Below, one piece after another: positions 3,366 to 31,038 of a stretch of 64,000 nt of DNA. The DNA is taken from NCBI RefSeq assembly GCF_015690345.1, contig NZ_JADPUN010000422.1:62001-126000 (forward strand). Direction: 5' to 3'. Position 1 is the stretch's first letter. The number at the start of each line of letters is the position of its first letter. The translations under genes were made by a program, and so were the position numbers. The notes beneath the pieces were generated by a model that saw nothing but the letters and a program-made list of their open reading frames with translations, did not search any database and was not told the origin of the DNA. The stretch is from Plantactinospora alkalitolerans (GTDB taxonomy: Bacteria; Actinomycetota; Actinomycetes; Mycobacteriales; Micromonosporaceae).

Positions 3366-3414
3366 GCAGCCACCGCCGCCCCCCGACCGGAAGCCGGGAC
3401 ACGACGGAAGCGGT
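3366..3414 (-). repeat. Intergenic hairpin element, family A
   Basis: ACCGC (3372-3376) and GCGGT (3410-3414) close the element around a short CCGG/CCGG stem. The upstream stop codon is 9 bases away. Confidence 0.6.
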
Positions 3415-3422
3415 CGAACCAC

Positions 3423-3974
3423 TCACCCGCGGGCGGCCTGACCTTCCGACAACGTCGGCTCGTGCTTGCCGGCCACCCGCCAGGTCCCGGACGGGTCGCG
3501 TCGAACGATGATGCCAGCGGTGGTGACGAAGCGGTCGCGGGCCGCATCCATGTCGATCTCCATTGAGCCGGCCAGGTCCAGCTCGATCGGGTTCGACGGG
3601 GCCATGACGACGTCCTGCCACGGGTTGCTGCCCCGGTACGCGTTGAGCGCGTCGACGAGCAGCGCCAGGACCTCGATCTCGTCGTACCGAACCTCAACAG
3701 CCCGCCACGCCTCGGCGAACAGCTCCGTCATCTCCTCCTCGTCGGGCAGCGCGACGTCGAGCGGGTGCTCGAACGCGGAGGTTTGCGGTTGCCACATCAC
3801 ACCCTCGGGCAGACGGTCGTCGACCTCGAACTGCAATTCGAGGAAAAGAGCCGCGGCGACCGTCCCTGCGTGCTCCGACCCGTAGTCAGCGCCGTTGATG
3901 TAGGCGTAGATGCTGTCCGACTGCTCGTCCTTGCCGAACCTGCTGCCGTAGGTGGTTGTTGTCGTCCAGGGCAT
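3423..3974 (-). CDS. Acidic hypothetical protein (183 aa)
   Basis: Starts at ATG 3974 preceded by AGGAGA; the longer in-frame extension to 4025 runs through the hairpin spacer and lacks a ribosome site. The product is acidic, with a helical centre rich in Glu (PDEEEMTELFAEAWRAVEVRYDEIEV) and a beta-type end that looks like a small domain with RRDPSGTWRVAGKH. No family recognised. It lies between two family A hairpin elements. Confidence 0.75.
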   Translation of the reverse strand: MPWTTTTTYGSRFGKDEQSDSIYAYINGADYGSEHAGTVAAALFLELQFEVDDRLPEGVMWQPQTSAFEHPLDVALPDEEEMTELFAEAWRAVEVRYDEIEVLALLVDALNAYRGSNPWQDVVMAPSNPIELDLAGSMEIDMDAARDRFVTTAGIIVRRDPSGTWRVAGKHEPTLSEGQAARG

Positions 3975-4007
3975 GTCGGTCTCCTGATCGTTTGTGTTCG
4001 AGTGGCT

Positions 4008-4066
4008 GCCGAACTCGGCTGCCACCGCCGCGACCCGACTCCCGGTCGGGACGCGGCGGAAGCGGT
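4008..4066 (-). repeat. Intergenic hairpin element, family A
   Basis: CCGCCGCG (4025-4032) pairs with CGCGGCGG (4052-4059), and CCCGAC (4034-4039) with GTCGGG (4045-4050), giving a 14-bp stem with one A-A mismatch and a five-base loop. Confidence 0.75.
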
Positions 4067-4071
4067 CGGGA

Positions 4072-4911
4072 TCAGTTCGTTCTGCCTTCCATGACTTGCG
4101 AAAGCAGCCCTAGAACCGCCTCGTCGGCGTCGGGGTCGAGCCCCCAGGACACGGTCGCGGAGTTCTGCCCGTGCATCCGCTGAGTGCGCCTTTTGTCCGC
4201 CAACAGGTGCTGCAACGCCACGGTGGCCCGGTCTCCGCAGGCCACGCAAATCGGCAAACCGCTCCCCGCCGTTTTGCGCTCGGCCTCCGTGAGCACCGAC
4301 AGCTGGACCTCCCATGCGGCCCCCGGGACAAGGTGTGCAGGGATGGCGTTCGGAAGCGTCGCCGCGAGGATTCGGATCTGGCCGCACGACACGCACAACC
4401 CGGTCTGGCCGCCCTTGAGCCGGGTCACCGTCTCGACCCAGAACCGGACTGCCTCCGGGGACTCGTGCAGCCAGATCCCGTCGATCCGCACCCCGACGAC
4501 GTTCCGTGCGTCGACCTCGTGCTCGGTTTCGATCCGGCCGTGGGTCTGAAGTAGGACAATGGCCGCGCCGAGGGCCGGATGACGATGCTCGCTGGCCAAC
4601 CACTGCCCCATCTGGTCCCAGAAAGCCTTGGTGCGGCTGGTTGCCTGCGCCTCGGAGGCTCCCACGCCGGCCTGGCCTAGCACGTAGGCGGCGTTGTCGA
4701 CGCAAAGCAACGGCATGGGCTTGGGGCCGGAGCGCCGCATCGTGGGCACGACACTCATTTCGCCCCAGGGCTCGATATCGATCCGCGGTGAGTTGTCGTT
4801 GGTGACGTATCGGATGTGCAGAGCCCAGTCGATCCGGCGCTCTCGGTAGCAGGGCGGCGGTAGCTCGGGGACGGTCGCCGCGTACCTGGTCAGCGAGGCG
4901 AAGATGTTCAT
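4072..4911 (-). CDS. Solitary Cas8c/Csd1-like protein (truncated)
   Basis: 279 residues from ATG 4911; the ribosome site is weak (GAGCGG). It resembles the N-terminal half of Cas8c (Csd1), the large subunit of type I-C CRISPR Cascade, which recognises target DNA. Matching landmarks in order are an N-terminal LPPPCYRERRIDWAL, then PLLCVDNAAYVLGQ near residue 70, a TGLCVSCGQ cysteine pair near 180, and LPICVACGDRATVALQHLLADKR near 235. Full-length Cas8c is usually 550-600 residues. No cas5, cas7, cas3 or spacer array is visible nearby. A solitary subunit could interfere with host Cascade; that is inference. An unrelated protein sharing the motifs is possible but less likely. Confidence 0.65.
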   Translation of the reverse strand: MNIFASLTRYAATVPELPPPCYRERRIDWALHIRYVTNDNSPRIDIEPWGEMSVVPTMRRSGPKPMPLLCVDNAAYVLGQAGVGASEAQATSRTKAFWDQMGQWLASEHRHPALGAAIVLLQTHGRIETEHEVDARNVVGVRIDGIWLHESPEAVRFWVETVTRLKGGQTGLCVSCGQIRILAATLPNAIPAHLVPGAAWEVQLSVLTEAERKTAGSGLPICVACGDRATVALQHLLADKRRTQRMHGQNSATVSWGLDPDADEAVLGLLSQVMEGRTN

Positions 4912-4951
4912 CGGCGCCCGCTCGTCGGGTAGCGAGGGCTGGCGATAGCCA

Positions 4952-5209
4952 TCAGACCAGCGCCGCCTCGTCGTCGGCCGACCAGATCGCGGCCGGCTCG
5001 CCGACGGTGTCCGCATCGGCACCGGTCCAGACCGCCACCCGCCAGTGCGGGCCCTCTGCCACCGTCTGGTTGCCGGCGACCCAGCGCGCGACATCTTCGG
5101 CAGTCTCACCTTCGATTTGCTTGACGTTTTCCGCCGGATGGAGGGCCTGCCAGATGGTCTCGTCGGCGTCGCTGGCCTGGATCTCCACAGTGAAAACGGT
5201 CGGTTCCAT
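4952..5209 (-). CDS. Small acidic hypothetical protein (85 aa)
   Basis: Starts at ATG 5209 after AGGAGA, which itself overlaps the end of the upstream regulator. The product is short and acidic with a Trp-rich second half (WQALHPAENVKQIEG, GPHWRVAVWTGADADT, IWSADDEAA). It resembles single-domain phage accessory proteins but matches no family known to me. Only 40 bp separate it from the Cas8c-like gene, with no hairpin element between them, so the regulator, this gene and the Cas8c-like gene may form one unit. Confidence 0.65.
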   Translation of the reverse strand: MEPTVFTVEIQASDADETIWQALHPAENVKQIEGETAEDVARWVAGNQTVAEGPHWRVAVWTGADADTVGEPAAIWSADDEAALV

Positions 5210-5219
5210 CTCGGGTCTC

Positions 5220-5516: not shown

Positions 5517-5521
5517 CCGGC

Positions 5522-5580: not shown

Positions 5581-5582
5581 AG

Positions 5583-6152: not shown

Positions 6153-6180
6153 AACCACCTCCAGTGCTTGTTGATTTTGT

Positions 6181-6241
6181 CCCGACATGCGGGCCACCGC
6201 ACGGCCCGGACGGTTTCTCCACCCGGGCCGCACGGAAGCGG
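6181..6241 (-). repeat. Intergenic hairpin element, family A, detached from a stop codon
   Basis: CCGC (6197-6200)/GCGG (6238-6241) enclose GGCCCGG (6203-6209)/CCGGGCC (6223-6229). Here 86 bp separate it from the next stop codon. That stretch has no gene and ends in a CGTACG repeat, perhaps the remnant of a lost gene. Confidence 0.6.
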
Positions 6242-6327
6242 CATGAATAGAACAGCTTGCATACTCTCAGCGGCCGGTCATCGATATGTAACCGACCGGG
6301 TGGGTCGACGCTCGGGTGATCGTACGA

Positions 6328-6741: not shown

Positions 6742-6756
6742 GACGCCCCCTTCCCG

Positions 6757-6814
6757 CCGTCACCCTGACGGCCACCGCGAGCGCCGGCTGCCCGGCAGTC
6801 ACGGTGGCCGTCAG
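6757..6814 (-). repeat. Intergenic hairpin element, family A, with competing stems
   Basis: CTGACGGCCACCG (6765-6777) pairs perfectly over 13 bp with CGGTGGCCGTCAG (6802-6814), around GCCGG/CCGGC. CCGTCA (6757-6762) can instead pair with TGACGG (6766-6771), so two folds exclude each other. The upstream TGA lies inside the long stem. Confidence 0.8.
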
Positions 6815-10119: not shown

Positions 10120-10182
10120 GGCTGTCGTTCTGACAGCCACCGCCGCGACCCGGCCGGTGCCGGGGCGCGACAGAAGCGGTCA
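10120..10182 (-). repeat. Intergenic hairpin element, family A
   Basis: A side hairpin GGCTGTC/GACAGCC (10120-10126, 10132-10138) lies next to ACCGC/GCGGT (10139-10143, 10176-10180). Inside is CGCG..CCGGC cggt GCCGG..CGCG. It ends in the TGA of the upstream gene. Confidence 0.75.
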
Positions 10183-10548: not shown

Positions 10549-10564
10549 CGATCCCCTCTCTGTT

Positions 10565-10619
10565 CGCCACCGTGGCGACTACCGCGAGCACCCGGCGGGG
10601 CCGGGCACCACGGGAGTCG
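10565..10619 (-). repeat. Intergenic hairpin element, family A variant
   Basis: CGCCAC/GTGGCG around one base (10565-10577) and CCCGG/CCGGG (10591-10605). The outer stem is CGACT (10576-10580) with AGTCG (10615-10619) instead of ACCGC/GCGGT, a paired substitution. Confidence 0.75.
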
Positions 10620-11126
10620 TCAGGACAACGCCTTGACGCTCATCCGCACGACCTCGCCCCGCCCTTGCTTGACGCGGCCATAGAAGCCGCCCGGCTCTTG
10701 CATCCGAAACATGGCCGGATGAGGTTGGATCATGACCGGTACGCCCTCGTGGCCCACCTCGCGTTCGCACTTGATCCAGCCGTAGTACTGACCCTCCGGA
10801 TCCTCGGTCAGCAGCACCCCGGTCGGCTCGCCCCGGCCCGTCCACGGCCGGTGGACGCTCTGCTCGTCACCGAAGCACATGAACTCGCGACCCTCGACTA
10901 CCTTCTCCTGCCGCCGTGCCCACATCTGCCAGGTCCGCGGTGACCGGTCGCAGGCCACCACCCGATGCCCGACCGTCGCCTCGGACCGATCCAGTTCGAG
11001 CTGCACGACCAGGCGCACGTGGACAGCCAGGTCGTCGCCGCACCAGTCGCACCCCGCGAGGCCGGCCGGCCCGTTCGCGCAGGCGGCCTCGATCGCAGGC
11101 TCGTCGTAGATCCTCAGGAGGTACAT
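10620..11126 (-). CDS. Hypothetical protein with cysteine pair (168 aa)
   Basis: ATG at 11126 is six bases after a GAGAGGGG site; a TTG two codons upstream is less likely. A GCDWCGDD motif near residue 27 and single cysteines later (ACDRS, MCFGDE, KCERE) could bind zinc. Beta strands around it (AVHVRLVVQLELDR) suggest a compact domain. No family recognised. Confidence 0.75.
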   Translation of the reverse strand: MYLLRIYDEPAIEAACANGPAGLAGCDWCGDDLAVHVRLVVQLELDRSEATVGHRVVACDRSPRTWQMWARRQEKVVEGREFMCFGDEQSVHRPWTGRGEPTGVLLTEDPEGQYYGWIKCEREVGHEGVPVMIQPHPAMFRMQEPGGFYGRVKQGRGEVVRMSVKALS

Positions 11127-11140
11127 CGCCAACCCCTCTC

Positions 11141-11201
11141 GCCGCCGCCCTGGCAGCCACCGCGAACGCCCGTCCCCGATCGGGCGCCACGGAAGCGGTC
11201 A
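11141..11201 (-). repeat. Intergenic hairpin element, family A
   Basis: ACCGC (11159-11163)/GCGGT (11195-11199) enclose GCCCG/CGGGC (11168-11172, 11181-11185). A side hairpin GCCGCC/GGCAGC needs one G-U pair. The upstream TGA overlaps the last bases. Confidence 0.75.
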
Positions 11202-11489: not shown

Positions 11490-11517
11490 CGCCATGCTCC
11501 CTTCCTGTCTTCGGTTG

Positions 11518-11565
11518 CGCCACCCTGGCGGCCACCGCGCGGGCTCGACACCCCGAGCCCGGCGG
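11518..11565 (-). repeat. Intergenic hairpin element, family A
   Basis: Side hairpin CGCCA/TGGCG (11518-11522, 11526-11530); main stem CGGGCTCG/CGAGCCCG (11540-11547, 11554-11561) extended by CCGC/GCGG. The stop codon of the upstream gene is 18 bases away. Confidence 0.75.
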
Positions 11566-11582
11566 AAGCAGTCAGGTCGCTC

Positions 11583-11879: not shown

Positions 11880-11902
11880 GCTGCTGCCCTCCTTTCCGCG
11901 CC

Positions 11903-11961
11903 GCCACCCTGGCAGCCACCGCGCCCACCCGGCCGGAGCCGGGGGAGCACGGAAGCGGTCA
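11903..11961 (-). repeat. Intergenic hairpin element, family A
   Basis: GCCA ccc TGGC (11903-11913), ACCGC/GCGGT (11918-11922, 11955-11959) and CCCGGC cgga GCCGGG (11928-11943). TGA of the upstream gene overlaps the last base. Confidence 0.8.
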
Positions 11962-12494: not shown

Positions 12495-12546
12495 CCTGGC
12501 CAGGCTTCCGCCACGGCCCGTACGAGACGGGCCGGACGGGAGCGGT
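12495..12546 (-). repeat. Intergenic hairpin element, family A variant
   Basis: Side palindrome CCTGGCCAGG (12495-12504); CCGC/GCGG outer (12508-12511, 12542-12545); inner GGCCCGT acgag ACGGGCC (12515-12533). The same inner arms recur at 21273-21291. Confidence 0.75.
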
Positions 12547-12552
12547 CAGCTC

Positions 12553-13391: not shown

Positions 13392-13412
13392 GATCTTGTC
13401 CTTTCGTAGGTT

Positions 13413-13469
13413 GGCCACCGTCTGGCCACCACCACCCGGCCCGCACCTGGCGGGCCGGATAGAAGCGGT
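13413..13469 (-). repeat. Intergenic hairpin element, family A
   Basis: Side hairpin GGCCA/TGGCC (13413-13417, 13423-13427) and an 8-bp main stem CCGGCCCG/CGGGCCGG (13436-13443, 13451-13458), followed by GCGGT. Confidence 0.75.
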
Positions 13470-13474
13470 CAGCC

Positions 13475-13828: not shown

Positions 13829-13848
13829 CGTGCACCTCCACTTCGGTA

Positions 13849-13912
13849 CGCCACCATGGCGCACTCCCCGGCCGCCGGGCCGAAGCCCGGATGCCAGGGG
13901 GCACGCCCCTCA
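13849..13912 (-). repeat. Intergenic hairpin element, family A/B intermediate
   Basis: CGCCA/TGGCG side hairpin (13849-13861), CCGGGC CGAA GCCCGG (13875-13890) and an extra AGGGG gcacg CCCCT hairpin (13896-13910) at the upstream stop codon. Confidence 0.7.
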
Positions 13913-14200: not shown

Positions 14201-14217
14201 GCTGTTCTCCCTTCGGA

Positions 14218-14259
14218 CCGCACCGCGCGGCCGGCGGCGTCCCGCCGGGTTATCCGGCG
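14218..14259 (-). repeat. Intergenic hairpin element, family B
   Basis: CCGC/GCGG side hairpin (14218-14221, 14227-14230) and CGCCGG gttat CCGGCG (14243-14259), followed by the family B tail that carries the upstream stop codon. Confidence 0.75.
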
Positions 14260-14278
14260 AGCACCGTCACCCCTCGCG

Positions 14279-14548: not shown

Positions 14549-14570
14549 GACCCTGCCTCCGATCTTCCCG

Positions 14571-14613
14571 CCGCACCGCGCGGCCGGCGGCGTCTCGCCC
14601 GGCGTACCGGGCG
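14571..14613 (-). repeat. Intergenic hairpin element, family B
   Basis: CCGC/GCGG side hairpin and CGCCCGG cgta CCGGGCG (14596-14613). It differs from the copy at 14218 by a base pair inserted in both arms. Confidence 0.75.
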
Positions 14614-14620
14614 AGCACCG

Positions 14621-14899
14621 TCACCCCTCGCGAAGCTCGATCTTGCGCACAATCCGTAGCGGAAACGCCATGACTCGGTCGTTGCCGCTGCCCTCGCAGA
14701 GCAGCACGAGGATGTAGCCGAGATTGCTACCGCCCCACCCGTGCGCCAGAGCCACTACAAATCCGGTGAAGCTCTCGCGCAGCGAGGCGCTGCCGCTCCA
14801 GTCGGCCGTTACGACCACCGTCTTTTCCACGAACTGCGCGGCGTGACGCGCCCTCTCGTCGACCGACATGCTTCCCATTTGACGCTCTCGACCAGCCAT
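14621..14899 (-). CDS. Hypothetical protein (92 aa)
   Basis: ATG at 14899 six bases after GGAGG. An N-terminal helix (VDERARHAAQFVEKT) precedes beta strands (YILVLLCEGSGNDRVMAFPL). The last residues IELREG share the -REG ending also found at 23018 and 23290, all next to family B elements. Confidence 0.75.
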   Translation of the reverse strand: MAGRERQMGSMSVDERARHAAQFVEKTVVVTADWSGSASLRESFTGFVVALAHGWGGSNLGYILVLLCEGSGNDRVMAFPLRIVRKIELREG

Positions 14900-14915
14900 G
14901 GCGAACCTCCGATTT

Positions 14916-14970
14916 CGCCGGACCATCCGGCGATGGCACCCGCCCTCCCCCGTCCGGGCGAGCACCATCG
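14916..14970 (-). repeat. Intergenic hairpin element, family C, with competing stems
   Basis: CGCCGGA cca TCCGGCG (14916-14932) shares two bases with CGATGG/CCATCG (14931-14936, 14965-14970), which encloses CGCCC/GGGCG. The two folds compete for those bases. Confidence 0.8.
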
Positions 14971-14979
14971 GCGCACGGG

Positions 14980-15654: not shown

Positions 15655-15673
15655 TGCTGGCACCTTCCTTCGC

Positions 15674-15724
15674 CGAACCGTTCGACGATGGCGGTCGCCG
15701 GACCGAAGCCCGGCGGCCACCATC
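15674..15724 (-). repeat. Intergenic hairpin element, family D
   Basis: CGAAC c GTTCG (15674-15684) next to a long stem GATGG..CGCCGG/CCGGCG..CCATC (15687-15724) with one mismatch and one G-T pair. Confidence 0.8.
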
Positions 15725-15739
15725 ACTCGTGCGGGGCGA

Positions 15740-16176: not shown

Positions 16177-16222
16177 CGAGACCTTCGCTCGACGGGGGCG
16201 GACGCCGGACCGGAGCCCGGCG
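16177..16222 (-). repeat. Intergenic hairpin element, family D
   Basis: CGAG/CTCG side hairpin (16177-16180, 16188-16191) and CGCCGG accggagc CCGGCG (16203-16222). Confidence 0.65.
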
Positions 16223-16242
16223 ACCACCCTCACTCGTGCGGA

Positions 16243-16829: not shown

Positions 16830-16850
16830 TGTTTGCCTCCGATCAGGTGT

Positions 16851-16892: not shown

Positions 16893-16904
16893 CCACGGAA
16901 GCAG

Positions 16905-17291: not shown

Positions 17292-17758
17292 CAGGAGCCG
17301 AACACCTCGGGGTGCGTGTGCTTCCACTCGGTCCACGGTCCCTCCGTGGCCTCGGAGTGCAGGGGGTCCATGGCGTCGACCAGCGTCAGCGATGACCTGT
17401 GCATGCGCCGGTTGCGTGGGCCCCCACCCGAGTACTCCGACCACCGACGCCTCTTGTAGCTCCAGTCGCCGTCGGCCCACTTCCGGAAGATGACACCGTT
17501 CGTGGCGCCGTCGACGTCGAGCAGCCTGCGTTCCATGCGCGCGATCCAGCTCGTGTTGTACCAACGCTGCTTCCACTCGGCGAGGTACGACGCCAGCATG
17601 GCCGCCTCGCGCTCCGTCGGACGTTCGGCCGAGTCGTAGTCGAACGCGACCAGGAACGGCCAGCCCGCCCACTGGTGGGTCACCGCGATGCGTCGAGCGG
17701 TCAGCGGGTCGTCCCGCCGAGCTTCGACCCCGAACGGCCACGGGTCGTCGTTGCCCAT
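17291..17758 (-). CDS. Hypothetical protein (155 aa)
   Basis: ATG at 17758 after GAAGAGG. Starts GNDDPWPFGVEARRDDP, contains an RRLLDVDGATNGVIFRKW segment and is rich in Trp and Arg toward the end (RRRWSEYSGGGPRNRRMHR). A nucleic-acid-binding role would fit the basic patch, without proof. Confidence 0.7.
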   Translation of the reverse strand: MGNDDPWPFGVEARRDDPLTARRIAVTHQWAGWPFLVAFDYDSAERPTEREAAMLASYLAEWKQRWYNTSWIARMERRLLDVDGATNGVIFRKWADGDWSYKRRRWSEYSGGGPRNRRMHRSSLTLVDAMDPLHSEATEGPWTEWKHTHPEVFGS

Positions 17759-17774
17759 ACCCAACCTCTTCCCT

Positions 17775-17818
17775 GTCACCGCTCTGGCGACTTCCGCGCC
17801 CACCCGGCCGAGGCCGGG
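17775..17818 (-). repeat. Intergenic hairpin element, family A
   Basis: Main stem CCCGGCC ga GGCCGGG (17803-17818) and a weak GTC/GAC side arm. The outer GCGGT has become ACCGT. Confidence 0.65.
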
Positions 17819-17833
17819 GGAGCACGGGAACCG

Positions 17834-18562
17834 TCAGGCGGCCCTGGCGGGTTCGCCCCGCACAGCGGCCATAAGATGTCCTCCGATGTACTCGGTGTAC
17901 CTCGGAGGAATCGCCTCGCAGACCTCGCGGATGGTGCCCATCCAGGGCACATCCATTTCGAGCGCAGCTCGCTCGCGCCACGCCTTGCTGTGCTTGCCGC
18001 CATGAATGGACATGAACGGCGCTTCGGGTGTCGGGAGGTAGCCGTTTCTGGTGCAGCGTTCTCGGTGCGGCAGGTGGGTCGGCTGCGGAAGGTGCCAGTT
18101 CGTTTCAAATGAACGATGGCGGTACACGCGCAGCCCCACCTCAGCCATAGCTCCGCATAACAGCGTGGGGTTTCGCAGCGGGGCTTGCGGTACGTTTTCG
18201 ATCACGTACGGCAATCCGGTTGCGGCGAACGCTTCCCTCGTCCGGTCTACCAGATCGGGATACACCTTCTTGTTATAGGCATTCAAGGGGCTGTACGCCT
18301 GACAGGGGGGGGAGCCGTGAAGGGCGGCAGGGTGAAATTGGGCCAGTAGTTGCGGCAGGAGGTGGAACGCGTCGCCTTGAAAGAACGGGAACGGGTTTCG
18401 GGGCTGCGGCTCGATGTCTACCGCGACAACTCGAAACCCGGCACGGTGGTAACCCATCCCTGCCCCGGACGCACACGAGAACAGTTCGAGCACCACGGGG
18501 GCGTTCGACGCGACCGCGACGGCACTCTCAGGGTTGACCACCCCGAGAGTATCTCCGCTCAC
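17834..18562 (-). CDS. DNA C5-cytosine methyltransferase
   Basis: 242 residues from GTG 18562, overlapping the upstream TGA as GTGA. C5-methyltransferase motifs appear in order: motif I LFSCASGAGMGYHRAGF with following VVAVDIEPQ, motif IV GSPPCQAYSPLN with the catalytic Cys, motif VI YVIENVPQ, and motif VIII RVYRHRSFETN. The C-terminal motifs IX-X are compact, as in small phage enzymes. It methylates cytosine in DNA using S-adenosylmethionine, most likely to protect phage DNA from host restriction. No partner nuclease is adjacent. Confidence 0.92.
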   Translation of the reverse strand: MSGDTLGVVNPESAVAVASNAPVVLELFSCASGAGMGYHRAGFRVVAVDIEPQPRNPFPFFQGDAFHLLPQLLAQFHPAALHGSPPCQAYSPLNAYNKKVYPDLVDRTREAFAATGLPYVIENVPQAPLRNPTLLCGAMAEVGLRVYRHRSFETNWHLPQPTHLPHRERCTRNGYLPTPEAPFMSIHGGKHSKAWRERAALEMDVPWMGTIREVCEAIPPRYTEYIGGHLMAAVRGEPARAA

Positions 18563-18909: not shown

Positions 18910-18930
18910 AGCCCATTCCTTCCTTGCGCC

Positions 18931-18975
18931 CGCCACCCTGGCGACCCCCGCCACGGCCCGGGACTTGACCGGGCC
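18931..18975 (-). repeat. Intergenic hairpin element, family A variant
   Basis: CGCCA ccc TGGCG (18931-18943) and GGCCCGG gacttga CCGGGCC (18955-18975); the tail reads GTGGTCA rather than GCGGTCA. Confidence 0.75.
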
Positions 18976-18987
18976 GGACGGTAGTGG

Positions 18988-19869
18988 TCAGGTGCGGTTG
19001 TACTCGCGGACCTTCCGGTCCACTCGGGGCTGGAGTCGAGCGACGATCTCCTCCACCGTGACGCCCGCCTTAGCGGCCAACGCCTCGGCGATGACCTTCG
19101 CGTGCGCCCGGTTCTCGGCCGCCGTGTTGCCCCAGGTCGCGGCGTATTCCATGTACCGTACGTAGTTGTTCTGAGCAGTCACGACCGTCCGGATGACCTC
19201 GCCGTCGACCCGGAGCACGCTGCCGTCCGGAGCGCCGATCAACTTCGGGTCCTCGATCCGCGCTTTCTGGTCGGCGTCCAGCTTCTTGCGCTCGTGCGGG
19301 TGCTTCCGCAGGTACCCGAGCGGGGTTATCGACACCCCACGTGCGCCGCACTCGCAACTGCCGGTCACGTAGGCCCTGCGCCAGTCCACGCCGCCCTGGA
19401 CCGGGGTCCGGTTGGGGCAGTCGCCGGACGCCTCCTGCTCGGCCACCCCGGCGGTCCCCGGCGTGCGAAACGCCGGCAGGGTCGGCGCGGCCGGCACGCA
19501 CACCGTGCACACGTGCCAGCCGCGCAGCACCACCACCTGCTCGCCGGTCATGTCTGACGCGGCCGGGTACAGGTTGCGCTCGGTGCTCGGCCACAGGGTG
19601 TTGCACTCCTTGTACTCGCGGTGGATGTGCCCGTTCGGCACCCAGTACCACCGGGGCCACTGACGCCTGGCGTATGCCAGCTCCAGCGGCTCGGACTCGG
19701 CCTCCAGGCGGGCGTACGCCAGCTCCGCCTCGGCCTGCTGGTCGGGCGTGGCGCCCTTCGCCTCCAGCACCGCCATCTCGCGGGCCATCGCCCACGCCAG
19801 CTCGACCAGGCGCGCGTCGATCTCGGCGGGCGTGCTGTCCGGGGTCACCTCGGGTCTCGTATCGGTCAT
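18988..19869 (-). CDS. Conserved actinophage-type hypothetical protein (293 aa)
   Basis: ATG at 19869 after TGGAGATC. A charged helical start (EIDARLVELAWAMAREMAVLE) leads to YWVPNGHIHREYKECNTLW and HVCTVC, a His/Cys cluster that recurs, from memory, in many actinophage proteins of unknown role (pattern NGHIH..C..., C-x-V-C). A second cysteine group is CECGARG. The C-terminal third is helical. The clusters may bind zinc. Confidence 0.75.
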   Translation of the reverse strand: MTDTRPEVTPDSTPAEIDARLVELAWAMAREMAVLEAKGATPDQQAEAELAYARLEAESEPLELAYARRQWPRWYWVPNGHIHREYKECNTLWPSTERNLYPAASDMTGEQVVVLRGWHVCTVCVPAAPTLPAFRTPGTAGVAEQEASGDCPNRTPVQGGVDWRRAYVTGSCECGARGVSITPLGYLRKHPHERKKLDADQKARIEDPKLIGAPDGSVLRVDGEVIRTVVTAQNNYVRYMEYAATWGNTAAENRAHAKVIAEALAAKAGVTVEEIVARLQPRVDRKVREYNRT

Positions 19870-19894
19870 CGTGATCTCCAGTCGTACGGACGTT

Positions 19895-19953
19895 CGCCAC
19901 CCTGGCGACTTCCGCAGCCGCCCGGCAGTGAGCCGGGCAACCACGGGAGCGGT
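19895..19953 (-). repeat. Intergenic hairpin element, family A
   Basis: CGCCA ccc TGGCG (19895-19907), CCGC/GCGG outer (19912-19915, 19949-19952), GCCCGGC agtga GCCGGGC (19920-19938). Confidence 0.8.
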
Positions 19954-19957
19954 CAGG

Positions 19958-20359: not shown

Positions 20360-20377
20360 GGTCAGTCCCCTTTCGTT

Positions 20378-20427
20378 CGCCGAACCGTTCGGCGGTGGCC
20401 GGCGCACCGGTCGCCCGATGCGCCACC
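20378..20427 (-). repeat. Intergenic hairpin element, family D
   Basis: CGCCGAAC c GTTCGGCG is an 8-bp perfect stem (20378-20394) next to GGCGC/GCGCC (20401-20405, 20420-20424) with flanking GGTGG/CCACC. Confidence 0.8.
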
Positions 20428-20441
20428 ATCACCCGCGCGGG

Positions 20442-20834: not shown

Positions 20835-20855
20835 GTCTCGGCCCTCCCTTCGTGC

Positions 20856-20903
20856 CGCCACCCTGGCGACTTCGGAGCCGCCCGGTCGAGCCGGGCGGAA
20901 CCG
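20856..20903 (-). repeat. Intergenic hairpin element, family A
   Basis: CGCCA ccc TGGCG (20856-20868) and CCGCCCGG tcgag CCGGGCGG (20878-20898), extended by CGG/CCG (20873-20875, 20901-20903). The outer arms differ from ACCGC/GCGGT on both sides. Confidence 0.8.
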
Positions 20904-20909
20904 GAGCGG

Positions 20910-21233
20910 TCAGGGGACGTCGTACCAGCCCCGAGCGATGTGGACTGCGTCGTTCGGCTCGTTGCTGACGGTGACTCGTACGCGGTTGCCCGCCACGCGG
21001 GGCGTGAGCAGCCACGCGCGGATCAGCTCGTCACCACGGCGTACGTACACGGCCTGCACGCGCCGTCGGTCGTCGTCCGGCTCGCTGTGCCACCGGGCGA
21101 ACCGCTGGCACAGCGACATGATGTCGGTCACCGACGCGCCGTCATCCCACAGGACGACCAGCTCCTCGTCGGCCCCGGCCCGCTCGATCGTTACGTCACC
21201 TTCGGTGCGCGTGCTGTTCTCGTCCCTCTCCAC
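20910..21233 (-). CDS. Hypothetical protein (107 aa)
   Basis: GTG start at 21233 after GGAAGGGAG. Begins ERDENSTRTEGDVTIERAG, with strand-helix alternation (EELVVLWDDGASVTDIMSLC, VQAVYVRRGDELIRAWLL). No family recognised. Confidence 0.7.
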   Translation of the reverse strand: MERDENSTRTEGDVTIERAGADEELVVLWDDGASVTDIMSLCQRFARWHSEPDDDRRRVQAVYVRRGDELIRAWLLTPRVAGNRVRVTVSNEPNDAVHIARGWYDVP

Positions 21234-21248
21234 AGTGCTCCCTTCCGG

Positions 21249-21306
21249 CGCCAACCTGGCGACCACCGCCACGGCCCGTACGAGACGGGCCGGACGGGTA
21301 GTGGTC
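21249..21306 (-). repeat. Intergenic hairpin element, family A variant
   Basis: CGCCA/TGGCG (21249-21253, 21257-21261), GGCCCGT acgag ACGGGCC (21273-21291) and an outer stem GACCAC/GTGGTC (21261-21266, 21301-21306) replacing ACCGC/GCGGT on both sides. Confidence 0.8.
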
Positions 21307-21511
21307 AGGAACGACGTTCCGCACTCACCCGGACCTCGGTGCCCTGGCTGATGCCGTACACGTCCACGGTGAGACTCCCGTCGGGCATGTTCGTGATGTT
21401 GATCAGGCACCCCTGACCGTTGCCGGTGTTGCTCGACACCTCCACGATTCGCTCGTCCGGCCCGGTGTAAGCGTTCGCGACGCACTTCGTGATGACCCTG
21501 GGCTTGGGCAT
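21305..21511 (-). CDS. Small hypothetical protein (68 aa)
   Basis: ATG at 21511 after GGAGGAGGGG. Beta-rich with one cysteine near the start (ITKCVANAYTG) and one in the middle (GCLINITNMPDGSLTVDVYG). Likely a single small domain; function unknown. Confidence 0.7.
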   Translation of the reverse strand: MPKPRVITKCVANAYTGPDERIVEVSSNTGNGQGCLINITNMPDGSLTVDVYGISQGTEVRVSAERRS

Positions 21512-21526
21512 GATCGGCCCCTCCTC

Positions 21527-21577
21527 CGTCGAACCGCTCGACGGTGGCGGTCGCCGGACCGAAGCCCGGCGGCCACC
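21527..21577 (-). repeat. Intergenic hairpin element, family D
   Basis: CGTCGA/TCGACG (21527-21532, 21538-21543), CGCCGG/CCGGCG (21552-21557, 21566-21571), GGTGG/CCACC outer stem. Confidence 0.75.
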
Positions 21578-21595
21578 ATCACCCGAGCGGGGTGG

Positions 21596-21955: not shown

Positions 21956-21973
21956 CACGATCTCCGTCCTCCA

Positions 21974-22026
21974 TCGAACCGCTCGACGGTGGCGCGGCAC
22001 GGACGCGAGGCCCGTGCGGCACCATC
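21974..22026 (-). repeat. Intergenic hairpin element, family D variant
   Basis: TCGA/TCGA side arm, GCACGG/CCGTGC main stem (21997-22002, 22012-22017) inside GGTG/CACC. Confidence 0.7.
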
Positions 22027-22549
22027 ACCCGAGCGGGGTGCGGATCACGTTGCCCTGACGGTCGCGGGGCCACAGGCCCGGCAGGGGCGAATCGGTGAAC
22101 AGGTACTCGCGCGGCTCCAACGCCGGGGTGATGTGCCACCCCACCTCGCCCGGACCGCCCGCGATCGTCGGCCCGGCCGGCATCACCTCGCCGTGCTGGC
22201 CACGCGACGCGAGACCGATCGCCTCAGCCGCAAGACCGCACAACCGCTCGACCTCGTCGCCCGGCACCTGGCGCTTGCCCGGGTTGGCCAGCGGCACCGC
22301 CGCGTACCACCGCTCGTCCTTGCGCCACACCCGGACCAACGCCAGCGGCCACAGCCGCGCCAGCGCGTCACGGATCGCCGGGTACTCGTCCGCCTTCGGC
22401 ACGCGGGTGCAGTGGGCGAACGTTGCCGCCAGGTTTGCGTCCGACGCACCCGGGAAGCTGGGCGGCTCGTAGCTGACCGTCTCGGCTGCGAACTTCGCGG
22501 CGTACCCCTCGGTCCGTCGCGCCAGTGCCGCCGCCCTCTCGTCGCTCAT
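22025..22549 (-). CDS. Hypothetical protein (174 aa)
   Basis: ATG at 22549 after GGAGAG. Helical first half (SDERAAALARRTEGYAAKFA, EYPAIRDALARLWPLALVRV), then a Gly/Pro-rich half (GPTIAGGPGEVGWHITPAL). No family recognised. Confidence 0.75.
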   Translation of the reverse strand: MSDERAAALARRTEGYAAKFAAETVSYEPPSFPGASDANLAATFAHCTRVPKADEYPAIRDALARLWPLALVRVWRKDERWYAAVPLANPGKRQVPGDEVERLCGLAAEAIGLASRGQHGEVMPAGPTIAGGPGEVGWHITPALEPREYLFTDSPLPGLWPRDRQGNVIRTPLG

Positions 22550-22566
22550 GCTCTCTCCGATCGTTG

Positions 22567-22624
22567 CGCGAGTCGTTCGCTCGCGACATGGCGCGGCACG
22601 GACACGTGGCCCGTGCGGCACCAT
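22567..22624 (-). repeat. Intergenic hairpin element, family D variant
   Basis: CGCGA/TCGCG side hairpin (22567-22571, 22581-22585), ATGG/CCAT outer (22588-22591, 22621-22624), GCACGG/CCGTGC inner (22596-22601, 22611-22616). Confidence 0.75.
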
Positions 22625-22647
22625 CACCCGAGCGGGGTGACTGCCGG

Positions 22648-22947: not shown

Positions 22948-22967
22948 GTCGTTCCGCCTCTCTCCGC

Positions 22968-23020
22968 CCGCACCGCGCGACCGGCGGCGTCCGGCCGGGT
23001 CACCCCGGCCGGCACCGTCA
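22968..23020 (-). repeat. Intergenic hairpin element, family B
   Basis: A 9-bp perfect stem CCGGCCGGG/CCCGGCCGG (22991-22999, 23004-23012), ending in the TGA of the upstream gene. Confidence 0.75.
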
Positions 23021-23221
23021 TCCCTCGCGGACGCCGTTGTCGATGATCTCGATGTCGGGCAGCTCCCCGGCCGCCTTCTTCTCGGCCAGTCGCGCCAGGA
23101 ACTGGCGCAACTGGCCGTCCAGCTCCGGATCGATGGGGCCGCTGATCACGACCGACATCGCAACATCTCCCGTGTCGGCATCGTTCGGCCGCCCGGCCTC
23201 GCCTTCGTGGTGGCTGTTCAT
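23018..23221 (-). CDS. Small hypothetical protein (67 aa)
   Basis: ATG at 23221 after GGAGAGAGG. Acidic-basic helix (PELDGQLRQFLARLAEKKAA) and a tail DIEIIDNGVREG that matches DVTVIDNGYREG at the end of the upstream gene. Either the genes share a C-terminal motif or the repeat element reached into both. Confidence 0.65.
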   Translation of the reverse strand: MNSHHEGEAGRPNDADTGDVAMSVVISGPIDPELDGQLRQFLARLAEKKAAGELPDIEIIDNGVREG

Positions 23222-23239
23222 GATCGCCTCTCTCCGTTA

Positions 23240-23282
23240 CCGCACCGCGCGGCCGGCGGCGTCCCGCCGGGTTACCCCGGCG
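23240..23282 (-). repeat. Intergenic hairpin element, family B
   Basis: CCGC/GCGG side hairpin (23240-23243, 23249-23252) and CGCCGGG ttac CCCGGCG (23265-23282). Confidence 0.75.
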
Positions 23283-23289
23283 AGCACCG

Positions 23290-23688
23290 TCATCCCTCGC
23301 GGTATCCGTTGTCGATCACCGTTACGTCCGGCGAGTACCCGCCGTCGAGTTGTACGACGGCGGGGCGTTCGCCACCGCCGTACATCGGCCGTTTGAACGC
23401 CCGCGCACGGGCAAGCACGCGGCCCTGTCGGTATCCGTGACGTTCCAGAGTTGCCGGGTTGACCGGGCTCACCTTGAGCCACCGCAACGGCGCGGCGCCG
23501 TGGTCGGCCGGGTCAAGCACGCCCCACCGGGGACCGTGACGCGTGTCGATGATCTTGGCTGGCACCAGGTGGCCCGCCAGATCGAACAAGCCCGGCACCA
23601 CGGCGTAGCCGCCGGCCGCGTCGATCTCTGCCTGTAGCTGCTCAACCCGAGCGTCGATGCCCAGTCGGTCAGCGGTCGTCGTGGGCAT
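23290..23688 (-). CDS. Hypothetical protein (132 aa)
   Basis: ATG at 23688 after GGAGAGGGGG. Starts with a helix (DARVEQLQAEIDAAGGYAVV), then LVPAKIIDTRHGPRWGVLD, and ends in the IDNGYREG tail also found at 23018. No family recognised. Confidence 0.7.
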   Translation of the reverse strand: MPTTTADRLGIDARVEQLQAEIDAAGGYAVVPGLFDLAGHLVPAKIIDTRHGPRWGVLDPADHGAAPLRWLKVSPVNPATLERHGYRQGRVLARARAFKRPMYGGGERPAVVQLDGGYSPDVTVIDNGYREG

Positions 23689-23705
23689 CGTCGCCCCCTC
23701 TCCAA

Positions 23706-23771
23706 GGTCGCACCGCGCGACCTCGGCACCGGCCGGACCATCAGCCCGGCCAGCACCGGCTACGTGCGGTG
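23706..23771 (-). repeat. Intergenic hairpin element, family E
   Basis: GGTCGC accgc GCGACC (23706-23722), GGCCGG/CCGGCC (23731-23736, 23746-23751); the loop CACCGC can also pair with GCGGTG at 23766-23771. Confidence 0.8.
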
Positions 23772-24324: not shown

Positions 24325-24339
24325 CGTTGCCCCTCTCCA

Positions 24340-24404
24340 GGTCGCACCGCGCGACCTCGGCACCGGCCGGACTCATGCCCGGCCAGCACCGGCTACGTGC
24401 GGTG
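24340..24404 (-). repeat. Intergenic hairpin element, family E
   Basis: GGTCGC/GCGACC (24340-24345, 24351-24356), GGCCGG/CCGGCC (24365-24370, 24379-24384), GCGGTG tail. Nearly identical to the copy at 23706. Confidence 0.8.
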
Positions 24405-24594: not shown

Positions 24595-24620
24595 GTCGTA
24601 CCTCCATGCCGGTCAAGGCA

Positions 24621-24685
24621 GGTCGCACCGCGCGATCTCGGCACCGGCCGGACTCGTGCCCGGCCAGCACCGGCTACGTGCGGTG
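24621..24685 (-). repeat. Intergenic hairpin element, family E
   Basis: Like 23706, but one side arm reads GCGATC, leaving one mismatch in the minus-strand RNA. This is the only clear unpaired change seen in this family. Confidence 0.7.
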
Positions 24686-24940: not shown

Positions 24941-24993
24941 TCGTCGTTTCTCCCAGTCCTCGTCGTTGTGGGCATGGTTTTGCCCGCGCCCAT

Positions 24994-25057
24994 GTCGCAC
25001 CGCGCGACCTCGGCACCGGCCGGACTCGTGCCCGGCCAGCACCGGCTACGTGCGGTG
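24994..25057 (-). repeat. Intergenic hairpin element, family E
   Basis: Same arms as 23706. The element ends in TCA, as if a stop codon once stood there, but the upstream gene now stops 20 bases further on. Confidence 0.7.
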
Positions 25058-25442: not shown

Positions 25443-25462
25443 TGAAGTGCCTCACTTTCTAG

Positions 25463-25515
25463 CCGGACCATCCGACGATGGCAACCGGCCGGCACCTGTC
25501 CGGCCAGCACCAACG
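25463..25515 (-). repeat. Intergenic hairpin element, family C/E hybrid
   Basis: CGGA cca TCCG side hairpin (family C) joined to GGCCGG/CCGGCC (25487-25492, 25500-25505) as in family E. It looks recombinant. Confidence 0.65.
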
Positions 25516-25524
25516 GCGCACGGG

Positions 25525-25677: not shown

Positions 25678-25696
25678 GGCTGCCTCGCTCTCTCCT

Positions 25697-25745
25697 CCGG
25701 ACCATCCGGCGGTGGCGCCGGCCGGGCGTGACCCGGCCAGCACCG
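25697..25745 (-). repeat. Intergenic hairpin element, family C
   Basis: CCGGA cca TCCGG (25697-25709), CGGTG/CACCG outer, GGCCGGG cgtga CCCGGCC inner (25720-25738). Confidence 0.8.
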
Positions 25746-25756
25746 TCGTCGTACGG

Positions 25757-26119: not shown

Positions 26120-26135
26120 CTCTACCCCTTCCCCT

Positions 26136-26185
26136 CCGGACCGTCCGGCGGTGGCACTCGCCCGGCGGACCGGGCGAGCACCATC
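26136..26185 (-). repeat. Intergenic hairpin element, family C
   Basis: CCGGA ccg TCCGG (26136-26148), CGCCCGG cgga CCGGGCG (26159-26176), GGTGG/CCATC outer with a G-T pair. Confidence 0.8.
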
Positions 26186-26195
26186 GGCGTACGGG

Positions 26196-26804: not shown

Positions 26805-26823
26805 GGTGATGCCCCTGTCTCCT

Positions 26824-26876
26824 CCGGACCATCCGGCGGTGGCACCGTCCGGACACGTGGCCCGGCCGGCACCATC
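26824..26876 (-). repeat. Intergenic hairpin element, family C
   Basis: CCGGA cca TCCGG (26824-26836) inside GGTGG/CCATC (26838-26842, 26872-26876); the inner CCGG stems are shorter than in other copies. Confidence 0.65.
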
Positions 26877-26885
26877 GGCGTACGG

Positions 26886-27116: not shown

Positions 27117-27134
27117 GGTCAACCTCGTTTCCCT

Positions 27135-27187
27135 CCGGACCATCCGGCGGTGGCACCCGCCCGCCCCCGTACGGGCGAGCACCATCG
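27135..27187 (-). repeat. Intergenic hairpin element, family C
   Basis: CCGGA cca TCCGG (27135-27147) and CGCCCG/CGGGCG (27158-27163, 27172-27177), with GGTGG/CCATC. Confidence 0.75.
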
Positions 27188-27196
27188 GCGTACGGG

Positions 27197-27562: not shown

Positions 27563-27583
27563 GGGTCACCCTCTCGGGTTGCA

Positions 27584-27640
27584 GTCGCTACCGTGCGACC
27601 CCATGGCAGGCCACCACGCGCGGCGTGATGGGCCACCATG
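27584..27640 (-). repeat. Intergenic hairpin element, transition to family F
   Basis: GTCGC taccgt GCGAC (27584-27599) as in family E, followed by CATGG..GGCC/GGCC..CCATG (27602-27640). Confidence 0.65.
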
Positions 27641-27656
27641 AAGGCAGGGTGATCGG

Positions 27657-28052: not shown

Positions 28053-28070
28053 GGCAAGCCTTTCCTGGAC

Positions 28071-28125
28071 CGCAATCCTTGCGAATCCACGGCCGGGCAC
28101 CGTCACGAGTGGACGATGCCCGGCC
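28071..28125 (-). repeat. Intergenic hairpin element, family F
   Basis: CGCAA tcc TTGCG (28071-28083), then GGCCGGGCA/TGCCCGGCC (28091-28099, 28117-28125) with an inner CGTC/GACG. Confidence 0.8.
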
Positions 28126-28144
28126 GAACATGCGCACGGGGATG

Positions 28145-28462: not shown

Positions 28463-28481
28463 GACGTACCTCCATACCTCA

Positions 28482-28550
28482 GGTCGCTATCGTGCGACAC
28501 GTGACCGGGCACCGGGCTAGGCACGGTGGCCGATCATCTGTGCACGGTCA
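28482..28550 (-). repeat. Intergenic hairpin element, family F
   Basis: GTCGC/GCGAC (28483-28487, 28494-28498) and CACCG ggctaggca CGGTG (28510-28528), running into the upstream stop codon. Confidence 0.65.
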
Positions 28551-28874: not shown

Positions 28875-28899
28875 GGGATACCCCCTGGATTGGCTAGGT

Positions 28900-28955
28900 C
28901 GGACCGTCCGCCCATGACCGGCCACCGGGCACGCGGCACGGTGAGCGATCATCGA
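28900..28955 (-). repeat. Intergenic hairpin element, family F
   Basis: CGGAC c GTCCG (28900-28910) and CACCG ggcacgcggca CGGTG (28923-28943). Confidence 0.65.
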
Positions 28956-28962
28956 TGCACGG

Positions 28963-29361: not shown

Positions 29362-29399
29362 TGGAACGCTCCCTACGTGCGGCCCTATCCGTGGGCACA

Positions 29400-29436
29400 C
29401 CGACCGGCACCGGGCTACGCGCACGATGCCGGTCGG
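29400..29436 (-). repeat. Intergenic hairpin element, family F
   Basis: CCGACCGGCA/TGCCGGTCGG is a 10-bp perfect stem (29400-29409, 29427-29436). Confidence 0.85.
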
Positions 29437-29452
29437 AACGCTGACGGTGTGG

Positions 29453-29728: not shown

Positions 29729-29755
29729 TGAAACGCTCCCGTTCATACGGCCCTA

Positions 29756-29815
29756 CCCATGGGGCACTCCGCCCGGCACCGGGCGCGCGGCACGGTGCCG
29801 GGCGGGAAGCATGGG
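29756..29815 (-). repeat. Intergenic hairpin element, family F
   Basis: CCCAT/ATGGG outer (29756-29760, 29811-29815) around an 11-bp perfect stem CCGCCCGGCAC/GTGCCGGGCGG (29769-29779, 29795-29805). Confidence 0.85.
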
Positions 29816-29820
29816 TGTGA

Positions 29821-30345
29821 CTAGATGCGCTCCAGCCGGAACAGCGCGGTTACCCCCCACGACTCCGGACGGTGCGCGAATTCCAGCGGCCCCGGGTCGG
29901 TACGTCCGGTCAGCCGGTCGGCCAGCCATGAACGCGCGTCCGACTCTGCCGCGCACGGCTCGCACTCGTCGTCCGAGTCGCACTCGCACGTGTGCGACTC
30001 GCCGAACAGTTCCCCCGCGATCGATTCGAGCAGGCACCGGAACGCGTCGAGCGCATCCGCGTAGTCAGCGTGCTCGGTGACGGTGCTCAGGTCCGACCCG
30101 ACGGCATCCGTCTTGTGACCGACACGCCAGTGCACGCGCGTCAGGCACGCCGAGTCGATGTAGTAGCGCGTGCCGTTGTCCCACTGGACGGTTGCGCCGT
30201 AGGTGCAGTGTGCACCGTCGATCCGGCCGAGCATGCCATCGCATCGACGTACTCTCATGCCATGGGCGTTGCTGCCCTGATCGATACCGACGATCAGAGG
30301 CTTTCCCGCGTGGATCTCTGCCGGTCGGTCACCAAAAGCGTGCAT
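29821..30345 (-). CDS. Cysteine-rich hypothetical protein (174 aa)
   Basis: ATG at 30345 seven bases after GGGAG. Beta-rich first half (GKPLIVGIDQGSNAHGMRVR, CTYGATVQWDNGTRYYID). A dense cysteine group CECDSDDECEPC near residue 125 could bind one or two metals; the end is helical. No family recognised. Confidence 0.7.
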   Translation of the reverse strand: MHAFGDRPAEIHAGKPLIVGIDQGSNAHGMRVRRCDGMLGRIDGAHCTYGATVQWDNGTRYYIDSACLTRVHWRVGHKTDAVGSDLSTVTEHADYADALDAFRCLLESIAGELFGESHTCECDSDDECEPCAAESDARSWLADRLTGRTDPGPLEFAHRPESWGVTALFRLERI

Positions 30346-30383
30346 GGCATATCTCCCTACGTACGGCCCTATCCGTGGGCACA

Positions 30384-30420
30384 CCGACCGGCATCGGGCT
30401 ACGTGCACGATGCCGGTCGG
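30384..30420 (-). repeat. Intergenic hairpin element, family F
   Basis: CCGACCGGCAT/ATGCCGGTCGG, 11-bp perfect stem (30384-30394, 30410-30420). Confidence 0.85.
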
Positions 30421-30439
30421 AATGCTGACGGCGCGGGGG

Positions 30440-30586
30440 CTAGCGGGTTGCGCGCGGGACGTGATCCATTGATCGATACCACTTGAACGCCACGCCCGGA
30501 TTAGCTCTCATCGCGCGGTCCACCACGTCACGGTCTGAGGTAACGATGATCACCGGCGGCGCGGTTTCTTCGTCTTTGACGTCCAT
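30440..30586 (-). CDS. Small protein (48 aa)
   Basis: ATG at 30586 preceded by GGGAGAGC; TAG at 30440. The product DVKDEETAPPVIIVTSDRDV continues VDRAMRANPGVAFKWYRS and reads like one strand-helix unit. It sits nine bases from the stop of the gene upstream and follows the ribosome-site style of the array. Confidence 0.6.
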   Translation of the reverse strand: MDVKDEETAPPVIIVTSDRDVVDRAMRANPGVAFKWYRSMDHVPRATR

Positions 30587-30595
30587 CTGCTCTCC

Positions 30596-30928
30596 CTAGC
30601 TCGCATCAGTTTCATAGTTGCAGCGTGCGCTGTACGTCGGACTGATAGCAACGATGCGGGTGTGACTGTCGGCTGCCATACCGCGTGGCTCGCGGCGAGA
30701 TGCAGTGATCTTGTGCGGCGCCGATACGTGACGGCTCTGCGTCGGTCCGGCAGGGATGTTACCCACGTATCCCACGACCGGAAGGGATCCATTCGGCTTG
30801 ACCAGCCGATATCCGCCGTTGCTCAAGTCAACCTTGACCCGAGCCTTACCCTGCCGAACGATCTTCCCCACGGCCGTGACCGTGTGACCGTCGAGCATCA
30901 TCCCCTTACGGATCAATGACACGTGCAC
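30596..30928 (-). CDS. Basic hypothetical protein, first gene of the leftward array (110 aa)
   Basis: GTG start at 30928, six bases after GGAGGGGG; a GTG at 30958 is in frame but lacks a site. Beta-rich core (GHTVTAVGKIVRQGKARVKVD, GGYRLVKPNGSLPVVGY) like an SH3-type barrel, and a basic tail. It is the first recognisable gene downstream of the structured non-coding region, so that region may be its leader. Confidence 0.7.
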   Translation of the reverse strand: MHVSLIRKGMMLDGHTVTAVGKIVRQGKARVKVDLSNGGYRLVKPNGSLPVVGYVGNIPAGPTQSRHVSAPHKITASRREPRGMAADSHTRIVAISPTYSARCNYETDAS

Positions 30929-30994
30929 TCTTGGCCCCCTCCACTCGGTCACGACCACGGGCCGTACCCATGATCGAAACCGGATGGGTGGGAT

Positions 30995-31038
30995 GGTTTG
31001 CCGACCGGGCCGGGCGATACCGGACCGGTCGGCAAACC
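30995..31038 (-). repeat. Hairpin element, family F, upstream of the first array gene
   Basis: GGTTTGCCGACC (30995-31006) pairs perfectly with GGTCGGCAAACC (31027-31038), a 12-bp stem. It is the only copy with no gene immediately upstream. Confidence 0.8.

Follow-up and report, generated by a model that had tools for sequence, protein, structure and literature searches.

The locus examined here raises the question of why nearly every roomy gap between the small genes of a phage-derived gene arm contains a folded element, and what such elements do. The analysed stretch (the window) comprises 64,000 nucleotides of Plantactinospora alkalitolerans, corresponding to positions 62001-126000 of contig NZ_JADPUN010000422.1 (C111) in a genome of 9.2 Mb in 441 contigs. 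Judged from its gene content, this window of a Micromonosporaceae genome contains a siphophage prophage. Rightward genes from 40 kb on encode terminase, portal, protease, tail, and capsid proteins, and a leftward arm (2957-30958, minus strand; our own gene calls) carries 60 small genes that are read from 31 kb to 3 kb and are separated by the elements. We counted 46 intergenic elements in this arm: 19 of type A, 20 of type B, and 7 of type C. The three types have different sequences and share one structural plan, for which a pseudoknot is predicted. At a probability of roughly 0.4, the preferred reading is that they are cis-acting parts of one long polycistronic phage mRNA that act in translation at its cistron borders.

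The 60 genes leave 59 gaps, 52 of which are at least 30 nt long. An A or B element is present in 39 gaps and a type C element in 7, while 13 contain neither; 7 of these 13 are shorter than 20 nt. Among the 48 gaps of 50-99 nt, 36 hold an A or B element, 7 hold a type C element, and 5 are without one; all three gaps longer than 99 nt hold an A or B element. Folding z-scores against dinucleotide shuffles average -1.96 over the 52 gaps of at least 30 nt (26 below -2), and mid-gene controls average -0.33 (3 of 56 below -2). The count, made by models and by eye, lies close to the figure of about 48 in the initial annotation, whose eight stem examples are all present at their positions by sequence reading and folds.

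Two covariance models define types A and B. R1 (type A) was built from 16 window elements aligned by sequence, and R2 (type B) was drawn from 20 window elements. At E<1e-3, R1 recovers 19 elements on the sense strand of the arm, along with 5 weaker antisense matches (27-31 bits) that mirror sense elements. R2 finds 20 elements, each scoring at least 44 bits. Type C was assigned by eye to 7 elements between 27.6 and 30.4 kb.

Paired change, strand, and fold

Covariation was assessed by counting double-change cells in paired columns and comparing them with 500 shuffles. In the window, type A has 31 such cells versus 11.2 in shuffled alignments and type B has 41 versus 15.6 (0/500 for each), with both counts taken from the same elements that gave rise to R1 and R2. 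For the 16 aligned type A elements, 91.6% of cells are paired, versus 33-60% in slid versions. Further pair types in type B of the window are no more numerous than in shuffled alignments (285/500). An ungapped anchored alignment of type A was left unused, as its conserved ends are invariant and its inner stem is smeared by indels.

Two related arrays serve as a separate test of the models, although their alignments are themselves fitted to R1 and R2. One is a Micromonospora maritima prophage (contig NZ_CADEAU010000009.1) with 17 type B and 20 type A elements, and the other is a viral contig from IMG/VR (2930248008_000005) with 27 and 25. In these relatives, type A has 133 double-change cells versus 43.2 shuffled, and type B has 99 versus 34.7 (0/500 for each). 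The proposal that selection acts on structure is thus supported by covariation in the window and the relatives and by homologous elements in other genomes.

The initial annotation had left open whether RNA or cruciform DNA is folded. At the base of the main hairpin P2, type B elements carry a U.G pair in 20/20 window copies and in 44/45 and 54/56 copies of the relatives (overlapping sets). A U.G pair on the sense strand is a C.A mismatch on the other strand, which favors RNA over cruciform DNA. The elements would accordingly act as sense-strand RNA, and it is the cruciform half of the suggestion that loses ground. In a further alignment (A3), G.U exceeds A.C by 202 to 78, a ratio made less clear by antisense rows and by a single pair that frequently does not form. 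A comparison of G.U with A.C over all possible helices was discarded, being swamped by chance pairs (174 versus 170; window 147 versus 130), and the strand argument draws on aligned columns only.

Each element opens with the P1 strand, which lies at the stop codon or immediately downstream of it, continues with P2 (an outer and an inner stem), and ends with a small side hairpin, P3. The P1 strand pairs with the loop of P3, so that the predicted fold is an H-type pseudoknot with an inserted hairpin. The plan first drawn for the elements was right in its hairpins and stems and overlooked this pseudoknot. P1 emerged when 56 type B gaps from the relatives were aligned by sequence only (4 mis-typed of 60 rows were removed by eye) and the columns of the 5' strand were openly scanned for pairs with those of the side-hairpin region. 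Ranked first is 19-80 (U-A 35, C-G 12), followed by 20-79, and both belong to P1; the third and fourth ranks are other pairs, and 23-76 (fifth) and 16-83 (eighth) lie on the same antidiagonal as P1. Within type B of the relatives, P1 has 19 double-change cells versus 5.2 shuffled (0/500), and 95.5% of its cells are paired versus 4-62% when slid. Matched P1 strands reach 6 pairs in 43/66 cases; swapped strands do so in 30% and shuffled strands in 2.4%.

The type A version of P1 pairs CUGRC with GCCAG and includes the stop codon. With 29 of 130 rows unanchored and 101 used, one covarying pair is paired in 87/101 rows versus 75.0 shuffled (0/2000), and another is weak (12/2000). The pseudoknot next to the ribosome site is seen in the relatives and only partly in the window.

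Gene borders and candidate roles

The elements fit closely between stop and start codons. In type B elements of the relatives, the start of P1 falls between -9 and +8 nt relative to the stop codon in 56/56 cases and at +2 in 37/56, and P3 ends a median of 19 nt ahead of the start codon (range 4-34). No element lies inside a called gene, whether among 89 in the two relatives (97 matches after exclusion of 2 antisense matches, 1 cut match, and 5 from a different contig) or among the 39 A and B elements of the window. The array gaps of the relatives (n=134) form two groups, with 17 shorter than 20 nt and 106 at 50-99 nt; the models find an element in 77 of the 106 and none in 29. Of 26 inspected gaps of the relatives without a model match, 24 read as type B by eye. 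Gaps under 20 nt are too short to accommodate an element. The arrays' ends without an element were considered as an argument and dropped, since the space there is taken up by convergent genes.

The tight fit to both codons together with the pseudoknot favors a translation role at cistron borders, perhaps with mRNA protection. We infer a single transcript for the arm and an action of each element in translation between two cistrons. A ribosome that finishes the upstream gene would occupy P1 and keep it open, and once it leaves, the pseudoknot would close beside the downstream ribosome site. Closed, it would insulate the cistrons by preventing run-on of terminating ribosomes and letting each gene initiate independently, and it may additionally protect against exonucleases. 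The conservation of bases in P1 and at the foot of P2 suggests recognition by a part of the ribosome or by a shared host factor.

A somewhat unlikely alternative is that the elements process or stabilize the mRNA, either through an RNase III-like cut in P2 or through a pseudoknot that stops RNase J or PNPase, which would yield single-gene mRNAs at similar levels. About one site per gap with room, a long variable stem on a fixed base, and sense-strand RNA are all consistent with this, whereas RNase III is not known to need either the conserved bases at the base of P2 or a pseudoknot. The RNase III sites of T7 are likewise similar hairpins between genes of one phage transcript; however, they number about ten and have no known pseudoknot or fixed fit to the stop codon.

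Pseudoknots beside ribosome sites also act as translational operators or enhancers in ColIb-P9 repZ, rpsO, and the IF3 operon. These are single sites per gene or operon, unlike the tens of copies per array described here. An operator bound by protein or RNA, through which one phage or host factor on all copies would switch the arm jointly, would explain conserved motifs within variable stems and the occurrence of type A in additional mobile elements within the host family. It is nevertheless rather doubtful, given that the motifs differ among types A, B, and C and that no candidate factor was found.

Transcription control gives a different account of the gaps. The initial annotation listed partial terminators among the possible roles, yet none of the 11 terminator-like sites (a hairpin followed by a T run) between 2.9 and 31.2 kb overlaps an element, which speaks against that role; one such site adjoins an element on the opposite strand (3977-3990). 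Antitermination or anti-Rho activity like that of the HK022 put sites, letting polymerase pass intercistronic stops and terminators, is improbable for the same reason and because a processive element would be superfluous at so many gaps and would not call for the tight fit to stop and start codons. The put sites each consist of a pair of neighboring stem-loops in phage RNA that are comparable in size, but they occur in two copies per phage, have no known pseudoknot, and do not stand at each gene. Consistent with antitermination, the strong R1 matches of the host genome are confined to the contig that holds the prophage and other mobile-looking genes.

Several observations weigh against a translation role. 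Five related loci (L052, L055, L062, L063, and L065) have a terminator-like hairpin after the element and shortly ahead of the following gene, and at L061 and L077 no reading frame ends at the element, by reading. These loci fit transcription control better and keep antitermination alive. Type A P1 depends mainly on one covarying pair and has an inner A.C mismatch in 74/101 rows. P1 is also weak in the window, where at least 5 pairs form in 10/20 type B elements, or 3/16 by another parse. For P3, 72.4% of cells are paired in the alignment of 56 type B gaps and 53.7% among the type A elements of the relatives, a value that ruled out the side hairpin as the main conserved part there. All five loci with the hairpin begin with a small frame (46 aa in L052), which precedes the element (of type A) and then the hairpin, with TTTC after the hairpin in 4/5, and this arrangement looks like conditional termination.

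Recombination joints for gene swapping were another suggested role. Folded single DNA strands resembling the attC sites of integrons, which combine conserved core sites with a folded DNA strand, could shuffle gene cassettes, in keeping with a gene plus folded element in one orientation and with a gene order partly altered between phages. The window shares 14 and 8 pairs of homologous small genes with the two relatives, which share 33 pairs with each other. Between the relatives, homologous genes are mostly collinear and their gaps are alike on both sides (0.82 and 0.81 versus 0.73 for random gaps). Between the window and the relatives, gaps beside homologues are no closer than random (0.72 and 0.71 versus 0.70; 0.70 and 0.66 versus 0.69). 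This ortholog comparison does not assign an element to the preceding or the following gene. The mostly collinear relatives with similar gaps on either side of homologues give joints no specific support; with the tight spacing to start codons and the conserved sense-strand U.G pairs, which argue against a folded DNA strand, they make recombination very improbable.

A new self-cleaving ribozyme at each cistron border would also be a compact pseudoknotted RNA of about 70 nt in phage mRNA. No invariant unpaired core was seen, however, and no Rfam ribozyme matches at E up to 1, which makes this role highly unlikely. In Rfam 15, no element scores above threshold; the sub-threshold matches are mir-Ro6-3 at 30.3 and 33.9 bits (79 needed) and RsmW at 31.7 bits (52 needed).

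Positions of the elements in the arm

All elements lie on the minus strand. Type A occupies most of the downstream part of the arm, with R1 scores in bits given in parentheses. The last element before the arm end is 3353-3416 (57.9), preceded in the direction of reading by 4004-4068 (53.9), the divergent 6178-6243 (30.9), 6755-6813 (48.3), 10120-10182 (68.5), 10562-10622 (70.4), 11140-11201 (68), 11515-11574 (61.2), 11899-11961 (71.8), 12498-12548 (51), 13410-13471 (61.1), and the divergent 13846-13903 (29.3). Further type A elements are 16846-16907 (71.6), 17231-17293 (70.6), 17774-17836 (63.9), 18928-18990 (70.4), 19892-19955 (70.3), 20853-20912 (63.2), and 21246-21307 (65.6).

Type B elements (R2 scores in bits) interrupt this series at 14215-14273 (54), 14568-14627 (44), 14915-14974 (59.4), 15670-15729 (69.8), 16182-16236 (50.1), and 20377-20435 (47.4). 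They then continue at 21526-21585 (74.3), 21971-22031 (69.7; overlapping the stop codon of the upstream gene), 22565-22630 (51.4), 22965-23024 (45.9), 23237-23296 (53.1), 23705-23765 (69), 24339-24398 (68.6), 24620-24679 (67), 24992-25051 (69.3), 25460-25519 (52.2), 25694-25752 (65.2), 26133-26190 (63.4), 26821-26881 (74.1), and 27132-27191 (64.1). The gaps assigned to type C by eye are 27563-27656, 28053-28144, 28463-28547, 28875-28962, 29362-29452, 29729-29820, and 30346-30439. The last of these has a z-score of -4.97, and the gap at 28875-28962 has a z-score of only +0.25 and an R2 match of 29.1 bits at 28896-28958.

Ahead of the first gene of the arm, sequence reading finds a long hairpin (30995-31038, minus strand) that is only a candidate for the family. 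The leaders before the first gene of both related arrays also contain large hairpins by eye (L127, 2566-2766; L132, 9965-10165).

The 60 arm proteins match just 5 Pfam and 6 PHROG families at E<=0.001. Among the arm genes, 17834-18562 (minus strand) encodes a DNA methyltransferase (phrog_363), and 4072-4911 (minus strand) encodes a 279-aa protein that matches the first half of Cas_Csd1 (PF09709) with an E-value of 6.6e-15. The latter, a Cas8c-like piece carried by the phage, may be an interference decoy.

Copies in relatives and other mobile elements

Both related arrays lie on a single strand and follow the same order as the window, with type B first and then mainly type A with a few B inside. 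Their terminase, portal, and protease genes point opposite to the array. Close phage relatives were not found by megablast with window positions 1-25000, by capsid peptide patterns in IMG/VR, or by blastn with a 2.4-kb array piece of the related viral contig, and all portal homologues are below 60% identity. Five additional viral contigs have no R1 or R2 match at E<=0.01. Beyond the main array of the related viral contig lie GntR/UTRA, DUF2637, and an FtsK match below threshold (L128, 16505-19128; L129, 1779-4031), and thus phage genes and genes like those of conjugative elements adjoin there.

Every R1 match above 24 bits in the host genome lies on contig C111, where two more clusters (at 5.9-13.9 and 38.7-43 kb) and a solitary site also occur. 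An RNA ligase gene (PF09414; L009, 12612-13397, minus strand) lies amid another type A cluster of this contig, which also carries a gene for a TROVE/Ro-like protein (PF05731; L011, 13470-15047, plus strand).

With the stricter search filters used in both samples, R1 matches at E<=1e-4 in 13 of 199 other genomes of the family and in 0 of 295 other genomes of the class. Foreign R1 matches were trusted from about 40 bits up. Of the foreign matches, 43 were read individually, and 9 directly precede a gene whose start resembles that of the L052 SSB. The other loci of the host family have one to a few element copies each, and some of these loci are integrating conjugative elements. A Pfam scan covering part of each of four foreign loci found RepSA and an integrase at L053, FtsK and DUF2637 at L059, and SSB with a sub-threshold FtsK match at L052; the single protein scanned at L065 gave no match. 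By RepSA and integrase, at least L053 is a predicted integrating conjugative element.

R2 matches 132 of 200 family genomes at E<=0.05, and among the matches listed none outside the host genome exceeds 37.7 bits. Such weak scores despite 132 matches indicate that rough E-values overstate in GC-rich genomes. A pattern scan of named genomes gave 27 stretches: 16 in Micromonosporaceae, 7 in Streptomyces, and 4 in alphaproteobacteria. Three of the Streptomyces stretches were read and are near-identical to each other, which points to chance or one conserved gene, and the four alphaproteobacterial stretches were rejected at only 22-28 bits.

Intergenic folded repeats near stop codons are also known as REP/BIME, which are chromosomal and scattered, whereas the present elements have their strong matches in mobile elements and fill most gaps of one array. 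No description recognized as the present element was found in a literature search for which most subscription papers were out of reach. The nearest actinophage parallel is in cluster K mycobacteriophages, where an invariant 13-bp sequence, GGGATAGGAGCCC, accompanies start codons in 11-19 copies (SAS), about half with an inverted repeat upstream; ESAS is a 17-bp repeat with its own consensus, and the function of SAS is described as unknown (PMC3203893, PMC12699233). SAS and ESAS are reported as repeated elements ahead of non-structural genes and restricted to these. The elements described here are similarly placed, with no R1 or R2 match at E<=0.001 in the 40 kb that carry the structural genes of the viral contig (L130 and L131). 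Unlike SAS and ESAS as characterized there, they vary in sequence while keeping a fold, contain a pseudoknot, begin at the stop codon, and occupy most roomy gaps. A scan of the window for the 13-bp SAS motif with up to 2 mismatches gave 0 matches.

The repZ pseudoknot forms depending on a ribosome that terminates on the upstream frame. A more specific form of the translation reading would have the terminating ribosome open each pseudoknot and its closing then set or recruit initiation on the downstream gene, about 45 times in one arm. This ribosome hand-over, which is quite unlikely, would be the bacterial analogue, in its plan, of the intergenic pseudoknots that serve dicistroviruses as entry sites. 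If true, it would be a device shared between phages and further mobile elements in a single host family.

The elements constitute a structured RNA without an Rfam match that is found at the majority of cistron borders in a phage arm, in two related prophages and, with few copies, in further mobile elements from a single bacterial family. Acting in translation at these borders, they would supply natural, interchangeable gene-border parts and would allow a direct test of how ribosomes pass between cistrons in high-GC bacteria.

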